Source of the DNA: a bacterium | GTDB taxonomy: Bacteria; Actinomycetota; Acidimicrobiia; Spongiisociales; ZC4RG35 | Assembly: GCA_028824015.1 (NCBI GenBank) | Contig: JAPPFC010000036.1 | Location: 1 to 64,000 of the forward strand | Reading direction: 5' to 3' | Length of the DNA: 64,000 bases | Shown here: in pieces, positions 3,418-24,413 of the stretch | Position numbering within the stretch: the first letter of the stretch is position 1 | How the letters are laid out: each line of letters starts with the position of its first letter | Made by a program: the position numbers and the translations under genes | Notes under the pieces: generated by a model | Databases searched by the model: none | What the model was told of the DNA's origin: nothing | The model's input: only the letters and a program-made list of their open reading frames with translations

Positions 3418-3660
3418 ATGACTTCTCGCATGAAGCCACCTGCTGACGTCACCCGCCTTCCGCAGGACATCTACGACCATCTCAACCGCATCGAAGGCAA
3501 GCTCGACTCGGGGCTGGATCGTCTCGAAGGCAAGATGAATGCTGGGTTCGCCCGCTTGGACACGAGGATGGATCGCTTGGACACGAGGATGGATCGTCTA
3601 GAAGACAAAGTGGACCGTCTTCAGGACGGCATCAACGCCCTACTCAACGGACAACAATGA
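3418..3660 (+). CDS. Coiled-coil small protein
   Basis: 80 aa with heptads RLDTRMD-RLDTRMD-RLEDKVD-RLQDGIN; 21-bp DNA tandem duplication. Confidence 0.6.
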   Translation: MTSRMKPPADVTRLPQDIYDHLNRIEGKLDSGLDRLEGKMNAGFARLDTRMDRLDTRMDRLEDKVDRLQDGINALLNGQQ

Positions 3661-3818
3661 CCACCACCGCCAAACCCGAACGGCGCCAGAGGGGCCGCCC
3701 AGTCGAGAAGCCCCTCCCCCCGCCTATCCCAGACACACCCGAGAACATCGCCCGGGCCGTGATAACCACCCCTCCGAAGCGGCGTAAGGACTGGAAGTAC
3801 CTCAAAACCCAGACTTAG
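3657..3818 (+). CDS. 53-aa small protein MTTTAKPERRQRGRPVEKPLPPPIPDTPENIARAVITTPPKRRKDWKYLKTQT
   Basis: ATGA overlap with the preceding coiled-coil gene; below the ORF-track length cut-off. Confidence 0.55.
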   Translation: MTTTAKPERRQRGRPVEKPLPPPIPDTPENIARAVITTPPKRRKDWKYLKTQT

Positions 3819-3841
3819 CTAGGCGAGCGCACCCCTCCTAC

Positions 3842-3867
3842 TTTCGCCACTTTGGTATATAATTCCC
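3842..3867 (-). repeat. Right terminal inverted repeat (rc GGGAATTATATACCAAAGTGGCGAAA)
   Basis: Matches the left TIR 25/26, inward-facing. Confidence 0.9.
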
Positions 3868-3945
3868 CAACGAAATGTAAACGAATGGGGCCTTATTCTT
3901 AACACTCTTCCCTACCGGGCGCCCCCATCAGGGGTGTGGAGACTG

Positions 3946-21673: not shown

Positions 21674-23023
21674 ATGACCTATCAACATCTCGGCAGGGAA
21701 CGCCGCAGGCTCACCGCCACGGTCGAAGACCTCGAGGTACCCCGCCAAAGAGCATTCCTGGTGGGGGTGCGTCTCGGGCGCAACTCGTTTCTGGAGGTGG
21801 AGCAGTCCCTCGAGGAGTTGGCTCTCCTGACCGACACCGCAGGGTCGGAGCCGGTCGACCGGGAGGTGTTCAACCGGTCCGCTCCCGACCCGGGACTGTT
21901 CATCGGCAAGGGCCAGGCGGCGTCGGTGGCCGACATCACCAAGGCAGAGGACATCGACGTGGTGGTGTTCGACAATGCTCTCACCCCCGCGCAACAACGC
22001 AACCTGCAGGCATTGTTCGAATGTGACGTCGTGGACCGCGAGGCGGTGATCCTCGACATCTTCGCCCAGCACGCCACCTCCCGGGAGGGAGCGCTCCAGG
22101 TGGAACTAGCGCTGCTCCGCTACCGGCTGCCCCGTCTCCGAGGCACCGGCGAGGAGCTTTCCCAGCAGGCGGGAGGGATCGGGACCCGGGGACCGGGAGA
22201 GACTCGCCTGGAGAGCGACCGCCGCCGCATCCGTCAGAGAATCACCTCCCTCGAGAAGGACCTCTCCGCCCTCCGGCGGCAAAACCGCACGCGGCGTCAC
22301 TCCCGCGTCCAGGCCGCCATTCCCATCATCGCCCTGGTGGGTTACACCAACGCCGGCAAGTCGACTCTTCTGAACCAGTTGACCGGAGCCGGGGTGCTCA
22401 CCGAAGACCGACTGTTCACCACCCTGGATCCCACCATCCGCCGCCTCCGGCTGCCCGGAGGCCGGGAGATGCTTCTGGCCGACACCGTGGGATTCGTGCG
22501 GAGGCTCCCCCACCGCCTGGTGGAAGCCTTCCAGTCAACTCTGGAGGAGGTTCGCGACGCCGACCTGATACTCCACGTCGTGAACGCCGCCGACTCCGAT
22601 CCGGAAGGCCAGATCACAGCGGTCCGGGAAGTCCTGGCCGAGATCGGGGCGGACTCGGTGCCGACCATCATCGTGGTGAACAAGATCGACGAGGCCTCAC
22701 CCACTGCTGTCAGGCGCCTGGTGGGAGCCGGCGAGACCGCGGTCGGCGTGTCGGCCCTGACCGGCGAGGGAACCGAGCAACTGATGGAGACACTCATCCG
22801 CTGGTTGAACTCGCGTTCCTCGACCATCTCGGTACGGGTGCCCTACGACAGAGGGGATGCCCTGGCGGCCCTCCACCGGACAGGCGAGGTGCTCTCCTCA
22901 AATGGGGGCCCCGACGGAATGGATCTGGTGGTCAGGCTCCCTCCCGACCAGGTGATCCGGTTCTCCGCTTTCATGAGCGAAGAGACCGGCGGCCAGGCGT
23001 CCGACACGACCACTCCCCCTTAA
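21674..23023 (+). CDS. hflX: GTPase HflX
   Basis: GIGTRGPGETRLESDRRRIR; GYTNAGKSTLLN; DTVGFVRRLPHRLVEAF. Confidence 0.96.
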   Translation: MTYQHLGRERRRLTATVEDLEVPRQRAFLVGVRLGRNSFLEVEQSLEELALLTDTAGSEPVDREVFNRSAPDPGLFIGKGQAASVADITKAEDIDVVVFDNALTPAQQRNLQALFECDVVDREAVILDIFAQHATSREGALQVELALLRYRLPRLRGTGEELSQQAGGIGTRGPGETRLESDRRRIRQRITSLEKDLSALRRQNRTRRHSRVQAAIPIIALVGYTNAGKSTLLNQLTGAGVLTEDRLFTTLDPTIRRLRLPGGREMLLADTVGFVRRLPHRLVEAFQSTLEEVRDADLILHVVNAADSDPEGQITAVREVLAEIGADSVPTIIVVNKIDEASPTAVRRLVGAGETAVGVSALTGEGTEQLMETLIRWLNSRSSTISVRVPYDRGDALAALHRTGEVLSSNGGPDGMDLVVRLPPDQVIRFSAFMSEETGGQASDTTTPP

Positions 23024-23051
23024 GCCAGAGAAGCCTTAATGCCTTAGCGGG

Positions 23052-24299
23052 TCAAAGTTTAGCGAGCCGACGAAGCACTAACCGATAGTGCTGAACGAAA
23101 TCGTCGGGTTCGGAATCAGCTTCATAGAACACTTTAGAATCAACACCGTCCCGCTCCTGCAATTTGAGATCGGACCTGATCTTATTCAAAGTGTTTCTCT
23201 TCACCGTCGTCCCATCACCGGCCCACGATACCCTCGACACCAGCAACCTAGACTTTGTCCTCTGTCCGAATCGAGACCGATTCTCAATACGCCGAGTGAT
23301 CTCTATGCGATTGCCCCCACCTGACACAGGTGTGCTTTCGCAGTTAAATCTTCTGCTAAGAATGCGCCGCAGCCTGTGCCAAGGAATCGGTCGCTCTCCT
23401 TTCTCCATCCTCCGACTATTACTCCTAACCCATTGAGCGATTTGCATGACTTCCCTATCACTACGTTCGTCATAATGAGACGGAACCAATCTGTGCTGTG
23501 CAACACGTAGGGTGAACTTAAACAACTCGTCCTCGTCACACGTCGCGATTACTGAGTTGAGGTCAAGAAAGACAAGAAGTGCCACGAGTCCCGTGCGTTT
23601 ATTGCCGTTGTGAAAACAATGGTTTTGCACAACAGAGTGAAACAATGCTGCAGCCGCCATCTCAATCGTCGGGTATTTGAAGACGTTTCCAAGAGAGGTC
23701 AGTGGCCTATTGATAGCAGACCCCAAGAGATGCGTGTTTCTGACTCCTGGCGGTTCTATAGGATCTTCGGAGAGGAGGAAGTCCTTTACTAAAGCATGAT
23801 GTATAGCTAGAAGATCATCCTCACTAAGAAACCTATTCGGTTGTCGAGTCCCTACGATGTCCCAGTGAAATGGCGGAATTGGATCCAGCTTTGGCGTTTT
23901 CCTCTGATCGTCGTCGTTCAGTTTAGGGGGAACGGCCCCTTTTACTCCATAATGCTTGCGGATCTTCTTCAAGGCACCTTTAGGCAAGGTCCGAACATTA
24001 TCTCTAATGGATACTCCTATTGCTGCCATCTCCTTTACAAAGACTTCTCTACCTAGACCAGTTCTCTTCAACCAGTAGTCAATCCGCGTTTGTCTTTTCG
24101 CATTTTCGATCTCTAAAGCGCCCTCTGCCGATCTCATCTGACGTGCAGGTATCCTGTCCCCTGGGTTGTTGATGTGATCAAGTCCAGCATCCCAGAGTCT
24201 GACCAAGGCTTCATCCAGATCTAAACCGGCACTCGATGCAAGTTCCTTGACCGTTCGTGTCTTGCCTATGGCGACGACTCTCCTATTCTTGTCAGGCAA
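23052..24299 (-). CDS. Fic/Doc-family protein with N-terminal IF2_N-like segments and C-terminal HicA-like segment
   Basis: Fic motif HCFHNGNKRTGLVALLVFLDLN; N-terminal TVKELASSAGLDLDEALVRLWDAGLD; C-terminal PWHRLRRILSRRFNCESTPVSGGGNRIEI...VKRNTLNKIRSDLKL; TTG start. Confidence 0.85.
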   Translation of the reverse strand: MPDKNRRVVAIGKTRTVKELASSAGLDLDEALVRLWDAGLDHINNPGDRIPARQMRSAEGALEIENAKRQTRIDYWLKRTGLGREVFVKEMAAIGVSIRDNVRTLPKGALKKIRKHYGVKGAVPPKLNDDDQRKTPKLDPIPPFHWDIVGTRQPNRFLSEDDLLAIHHALVKDFLLSEDPIEPPGVRNTHLLGSAINRPLTSLGNVFKYPTIEMAAAALFHSVVQNHCFHNGNKRTGLVALLVFLDLNSVIATCDEDELFKFTLRVAQHRLVPSHYDERSDREVMQIAQWVRSNSRRMEKGERPIPWHRLRRILSRRFNCESTPVSGGGNRIEITRRIENRSRFGQRTKSRLLVSRVSWAGDGTTVKRNTLNKIRSDLKLQERDGVDSKVFYEADSEPDDFVQHYRLVLRRLAKL

Positions 24300-24413
24300 C
24301 CCGTGGTTTTGCCTCCCATGGAAGCTCTTCTACTTTTGGTTTTGCCATCTGTTCTCTCTACTTTATTCACTGGAGAGGGAGGTGTTGCCCGTTCCACACC
24401 GGGACCGGTGTTC

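Follow-up and report, generated by a model that had tools for sequence, protein, structure and literature searches.

The question raised by this locus is what a single Fic/Doc-type gene, flanked by hflX and ppgK, does for its host, and what the parts of its product on either side of the Fic domain contribute. The window, by which we mean the whole stretch of 64,000 nucleotides that was analysed, contains one such gene, and a preliminary description had suggested that it combines a Doc-type toxin with modules related to translation factors and to HicA. From its sequence, its relatives and their neighbourhoods we favour, on balance, the reading that it encodes a solitary, horizontally acquired and self-regulated anti-phage or abortive-infection effector of the Doc branch, which would likely be directed at translation.

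The gene and its site of insertion

The gene (23052..24299, minus strand) encodes a Fic/Doc protein whose ends resemble IF2_N and HicA, with 415 codons open from a TTG. The choice of TTG as start was sound, as no other in-frame start could be used ahead of the first IF2_N-like unit, and the proteins of the relatives begin at the corresponding position. The gene lies in a segment of low G+C content (23024..24413; 49.4% against 64.0% for the window) inserted between hflX and ppgK. These two genes converge on the insert, ending at 23023 and 24414 respectively, and the only other open reading frame between them is one of 18 aa. The earlier picture of a lone gene in an AT-richer island is thus confirmed, as is the lack of a Phd or HicB antitoxin gene: no Phd-like or HicB-like ORF was found beside the Fic/Doc gene.

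In the present genome hflX and ppgK are 1390 bp apart, whereas in the sister species the distance is about 366 bp (G001 and G003), about 120 bp (G002) or about 100 bp (G004). The Fic gene is absent from the junction in all four, and in a fifth species the junction is interrupted by a contig end. The insert is present in one of six sampled congeners. Since the gap in the four sister species is only about 100 to 366 bp and has no Fic gene, the gene was most likely gained in the present genome, and the comparison points to a horizontal acquisition that is most likely recent. No direct repeats were found at the ends of the insert, and searches of the low-G+C island for Rfam families and for signals of a promoter or terminator gave nothing.

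The 18-aa leader ORF (MAKPKVEELPWEAKPRVA; 24292..24348, minus strand) ends in a TGA that overlaps the TTG at which the Fic gene starts, and its ATG is preceded by a purine-rich stretch, an arrangement in which translational coupling to the Fic gene is possible. A role for the ORF as antitoxin or as part of a frameshift fusion was considered but not adopted, as it is not conserved upstream of the relatives. Seven ORFs of the host genome (G000) have a Fic domain, and apart from the present one most of them lie in frames open for about 400-500 codons; there is a HicA gene on contig C41.

The Fic core and its flanking domains

The central part of the protein, residues 157-297 (23409..23831, minus strand), is a Doc-type Fic domain, as had been proposed. 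It matches the Pfam Fic family PF02661 (E 1.1e-14), the NCBIfam Doc family TIGR01550 (E 2.7e-16) and the solved Doc-family protein 9vzc (E 6e-13), and Foldseek gives P1 Doc as the closest fold, with a TM-score of 0.87 to 3dd7. The AlphaFold2 model of the whole protein has a pLDDT of 80, and when compared at full length with a viral structure library it gave only two significant matches, both to unnamed proteins. Matches to PADLOC family PDC-S23 are confined to the Fic core.

The catalytic motif is HCFHNGNKR (residues 227-235; 23595..23621, minus strand), in which NH-F-NGNKR is invariant in the 16 aligned members. In place of the acidic residue of the Fic motif the present protein and the short forms described below have N, a point against the reading that we favour, and the last glycine of the motif is replaced by the lysine of GNKR, which is present in all aligned relatives. 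The lysine at the K73 position of Doc has been credited with the kinase chemistry of that protein (reviewed in PMC7180214), and the motif predicts an enzyme that fits Doc-type phosphotransfer. The inhibitory motif of type II and III Fic proteins, [ST]xxxE[GN], is not conserved in the family, and its lone match in the present protein, at residue 335, is a chance one in the C-terminal hairpin.

Pfam gave no meaningful match outside the Fic domain and called neither IF2_N nor HicA in the present protein, and for this reason custom profiles were built for both ends. The reference profiles comprised 34 IF2 N-terminal units and 27 HicA proteins, with a few reads left out that had an internal stop. 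For unit 1 (residues 13-61; 24117..24263, minus strand) the alignment of five long relatives over query residues 8-66 matched IF2_N in hhalign at 95.8-96.0% (P 4.9e-9), and still at 95.4% with the window sequence removed. Column-shuffled controls reached at most 12.7, as against 41 for the real alignment. Unit 2 (residues 72-121; 23937..24086, minus strand; query residues 68-124) is weaker, with 86% for an alignment of two sequences and 67% for one of three. The N-terminal part of the AlphaFold2 model has the order strand-helix-helix-helix twice, with helices at residues 17-23, 28-37 and 52-61 in the first unit and 73-80, 84-93 and 109-117 in the second, and this part is strongly basic (pI 10.0). 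Of the two IF2_N segments of the preliminary description, the first is therefore well supported as IF2_N-like from its profile, and the second is a probable case.

At the other end residues 304-382 (23154..23390, minus strand) form the HicA-like domain. Residues 298-385 matched HicA in hhalign at 95.4-95.8% with 13-17 relatives (P 6.7e-9 with 17), and the alignment spans all 60 HicA columns. When 350 segments of real ORFs were scanned against HicA the first place went to an unrelated segment, and the second to fourth places went to C-termini of this family that had been included by accident. In AlphaFold2 the domain has the order alpha-beta-beta-beta-alpha, both in the model of the whole protein and when modelled alone (pLDDT 75). 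Foldseek with the latter model found no significant PDB neighbour and HicA was absent from the top 50, and the assignment to HicA thus rests on the sequence profiles and the order of helices and strands. The HicA-like or dsRBD-like layout suggested earlier is in this way supported by sequence profile and strand order, and not confirmed by fold. Two relatives had Pfam matches of their own, L042 to IF2_N at the position corresponding to unit 1 (E 0.15, below the Pfam cut-off) and L167 to HicA_toxin (E 0.087, model positions 1-56 of 58). However, unrelated noise families scored equally well, and these matches are hints only.

One could take the view that both ends owe their likeness to chance, being generic helical and alpha-beta domains, and that what we have is a Doc whose flanks are unrelated to IF2_N and HicA. 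The silence of Pfam on both ends, the lack of a significant Foldseek match for the C-terminal model, the noise families and the fall of unit 2 to 67% with three sequences would all suit that view. However, we consider it improbable, as the hhalign P values for the two ends (5e-9 and 7e-9 when rounded) stand well clear of the controls, those with reversed sequences and crossed domains included, the order of secondary structure elements in the AlphaFold2 models matches that expected, and the family C-termini ranked so high in likeness to HicA.

Keeping then to IF2_N-like and HicA-like ends, we can ask what the latter might do. In HicA of Burkholderia pseudomallei Gly22 and His24 are essential (PMC3969222). 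In the present protein a histidine is missing where the hairpin begins, and the family conserves none at that place. With the catalytic GSH histidine missing and no adjacent HicB gene a second active toxin is unlikely, and the idea of two active toxins in one protein was rejected. We infer that a degenerate domain for RNA binding or regulation is the better description. It is followed by a C-terminal tail (23055..23153, minus strand), comprising the family-invariant GxDSxxFY (residues 385-392) and a last helix. The alignment shows D387, S388, F391 and Y392 to be invariant in all aligned members; the motif sits behind the second helix of the HicA-like domain and is missing from the HicA sequences collected for comparison. 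Like the N-terminal part, the C-terminal part is strongly basic (pI 11.1).

Relatives and the link to phage defence

The architecture is that of a family and is not unique to the present gene. The search for homologs that had been recommended gave four other long forms, with the N-terminal part present, so that long forms are known from five distant genomes. L042, from a Planctomycetes MAG (43%), can be aligned over its whole length, and L166, from a genome of the window's phylum (G1005), is a full-length relative of 405 aa with 45% identity. L167 (377 aa, genome G169) and L041 (349 aa, a Pacebacteria MAG) have a single N-terminal unit each. The relatives were recovered by an alignment-based genome scan, and a genome-wide pattern scan with the present protein as single query gave no match. 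Most other matches in genomes were to ordinary Doc/Fic proteins that have no HicA-like C-terminal domain, and a weak N-terminal match in G252 (L027) was dropped as it covers an unrelated sulfurtransferase-like region. The distribution of the family among the genomes searched is very patchy, and we did not find the same architecture described in the open-access literature.

The short forms, of about 242 aa, consist of the Fic domain and the HicA-like C-terminal domain only. At least a dozen are known from phages or prophages. Short forms occur in Vogesella and Pseudomonas, in filamentous phages of Vibrio, on Klebsiella plasmids, on a Salmonella filamentous-phage plasmid and on IMG/VR contigs. 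They correspond to phrog_18015, a family of 244-aa proteins that is filed without function and matches the present protein over residues 164-315 (E 1.1e-28); its C-terminus can be aligned in full with ours and the D-S-F-Y residues are invariant. In the tree the long forms are set apart from the short clade (support 100/99), with modest support (82/86) for the branch between the family and the outgroup.

Several members have features of their own. In Salmonella (L021:2672-3741) and Vibrio (L023:5007-5739) the short form is a moron-like gene of filamentous phages, and the Vibrio phage record splits the annotation of the gene into two pieces (35 and 200 aa). In phage contig L033 a gene for a cREC (cyclic-phosphate-processing receiver) protein (3603-3908; Pfam E 6e-28) is directly before the short form. 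A diverged member on a viral contig (L218:4977-5709) has a C-terminus that is HicA-like by eye (RTSDFVEKCRAAG...VVISTPQKKGIRIRNSTKKLSGPVVRSYMRSLGL), and when used alone gave only 16% in hhalign. At L170 (G195:C28:1650-1763) a remnant of the long-form C-terminal tail (...HGCDSRIFYEGDLRADEWINRYRKTLARLARL) lies between two ordinary Fic genes, and is probably a decayed copy.

Doc toxins mostly depend on a separate antitoxin. It could be argued that we are dealing with a plain type II toxin-antitoxin pair in which the present protein is the Doc toxin and the antitoxin has been lost or is supplied from elsewhere, the extra domains only adjusting specificity. This would be in keeping with its membership of the Doc family (TIGR01550), and there are small genes at some loci: a 94-aa CopG-antitoxin-like gene 68 bp behind L042 (L042:7289-7573; PF12441, E 0.002, below the Pfam cut-off), a 60-aa gene ahead of the Salmonella inovirus form, and a conserved small ORF with a second Doc gene ahead of the Pseudomonas forms. 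In three Pseudomonas prophages (L030:3682-5200, L034:3820-5236 and L044:5788-7209) the small ORF, a small Doc (HPFFNANKR) and the Fic and HicA-like protein are in a row; the product of the small ORF ends ...NNAFxxxFxQYExAFEELxKV and has no Pfam match, and it may act as antitoxin to the first Doc. However, the small neighbour genes vary from locus to locus and do not accompany the family as conserved partners, there is no antitoxin gene at the present locus or at L166, L041 or L167, and the present gene is intact with its motif kept, and yet has no partner. We therefore think a conventional toxin with a missing antitoxin rather unlikely.

A self-contained effector is better matched by the company that the family keeps. 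The start of L166 is 153 bp behind hmaC, which encodes a HmaC/DUF499 ATPase of 1096 aa, and the locus also has hmaA (1588 bits), hmaB (422 bits) and genes for HEPN, NOV_C and OLD-like ATPase proteins, making up a complete Hma/DUF499 defence locus. Hma is a known defence operon (PMC8565338, PMC12839542), and a 2026 survey of Hma/DUF499 systems mentions no Fic gene (PMC12839542). A gene for a NERD nuclease directly follows L167. The present gene, L042 and L041 are alone or nearly so at their loci, and L166 is the only one of the five long forms with a recognised defence system beside it, hmaA, hmaB and hmaC being absent from the present locus. With relatives in filamentous phages and one inside an anti-phage system, the present protein is probably a self-contained phage-defence protein.

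The present gene, L042 and L041 stand alone in the chromosome, and L041 comes directly after an rRNA-like stretch; such sites could also be accounted for by a housekeeping or regulatory Fic kinase with no role against phages, in which the IF2_N-like part would sit on ribosomes or 30S complexes and tune translation under stress. The IF2_N-like units and the basic ends would be at home in such a protein. However, the very patchy distribution, the insertion in one of six sampled congeners, the low G+C content, the short forms borne by phages and the long form linked to Hma are together what is expected of mobile conflict genes, and we regard a housekeeping role as quite improbable.

Proposed mechanism and comparison with known systems

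For the anti-phage effector that we favour, a possible course of events can be put together from the domains. The basic flanking domains would let the enzyme dock on the translation machinery, be it the ribosome, an initiation complex or RNA, and would also restrain the Fic domain in an inactive state, with the HicA-like domain serving as a sensor that binds RNA or ribosomes and not as a second toxin. Infection would disturb the docked state and release the Fic domain, which by analogy with Doc may then phosphorylate a translation GTPase such as EF-Tu, AMPylation being less likely, and the modification would stop protein synthesis and growth. In this specific form, a one-gene effector needing no antitoxin, in which IF2-related domains and a nuclease-dead HicA aim and restrain a Doc kinase and disturbed translation is the trigger, the proposal is a tentative one that we put forward as possible and not as probable.

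With regard to P1 Doc of the Phd-Doc system (PDB 3dd7, 3k33) and the Doc-family protein 9vzc, the present protein shares the Fic core fold and the HxFx..NKR motif with the Doc lysine. However, P1 Doc has about 126 aa and a separate Phd antitoxin, whereas the present protein has three extra domains and no Phd. If it is indeed a Doc restrained by its own borrowed translation-related domains, it would join toxin-antitoxin biology to single-gene phage defence.

The phrog_18015 proteins of inoviruses and prophages have the Fic domain, the HicA-like C-terminal domain and the GxDSxxFY tail in common with the present protein, and differ in that IF2_N-like units are missing and the hairpin of the C-terminal domain is shorter. 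If our reading is correct, these phage-borne Fic proteins would gain a purpose. In the case of HicA (PF07927) the whole profile is matched by the present C-terminus and the alpha-beta-beta-beta-alpha order is common to both, whereas the present domain has no GSH histidine and no HicB, and is fused to Fic. If a dead HicA serves here for binding or sensing, the HicA fold would have been put to a new use.

Sofic is, like the present one, a single-gene Fic protein, and it is an AMPylator that protects against phage. It belongs to the class II Fic proteins, has an inhibitory helix of its own and comes with a small antitoxin, AS1 (PMC12249575), whereas in the present protein the motif is of the Doc type and an inhibitory motif is lacking. 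Finally, in the BREX-related system centred on Hma/DUF499 the relative L166 lies directly behind hmaABC, in contrast to the present gene, which is alone, and it is this Hma-linked relative that makes the proposed role in defence directly testable.
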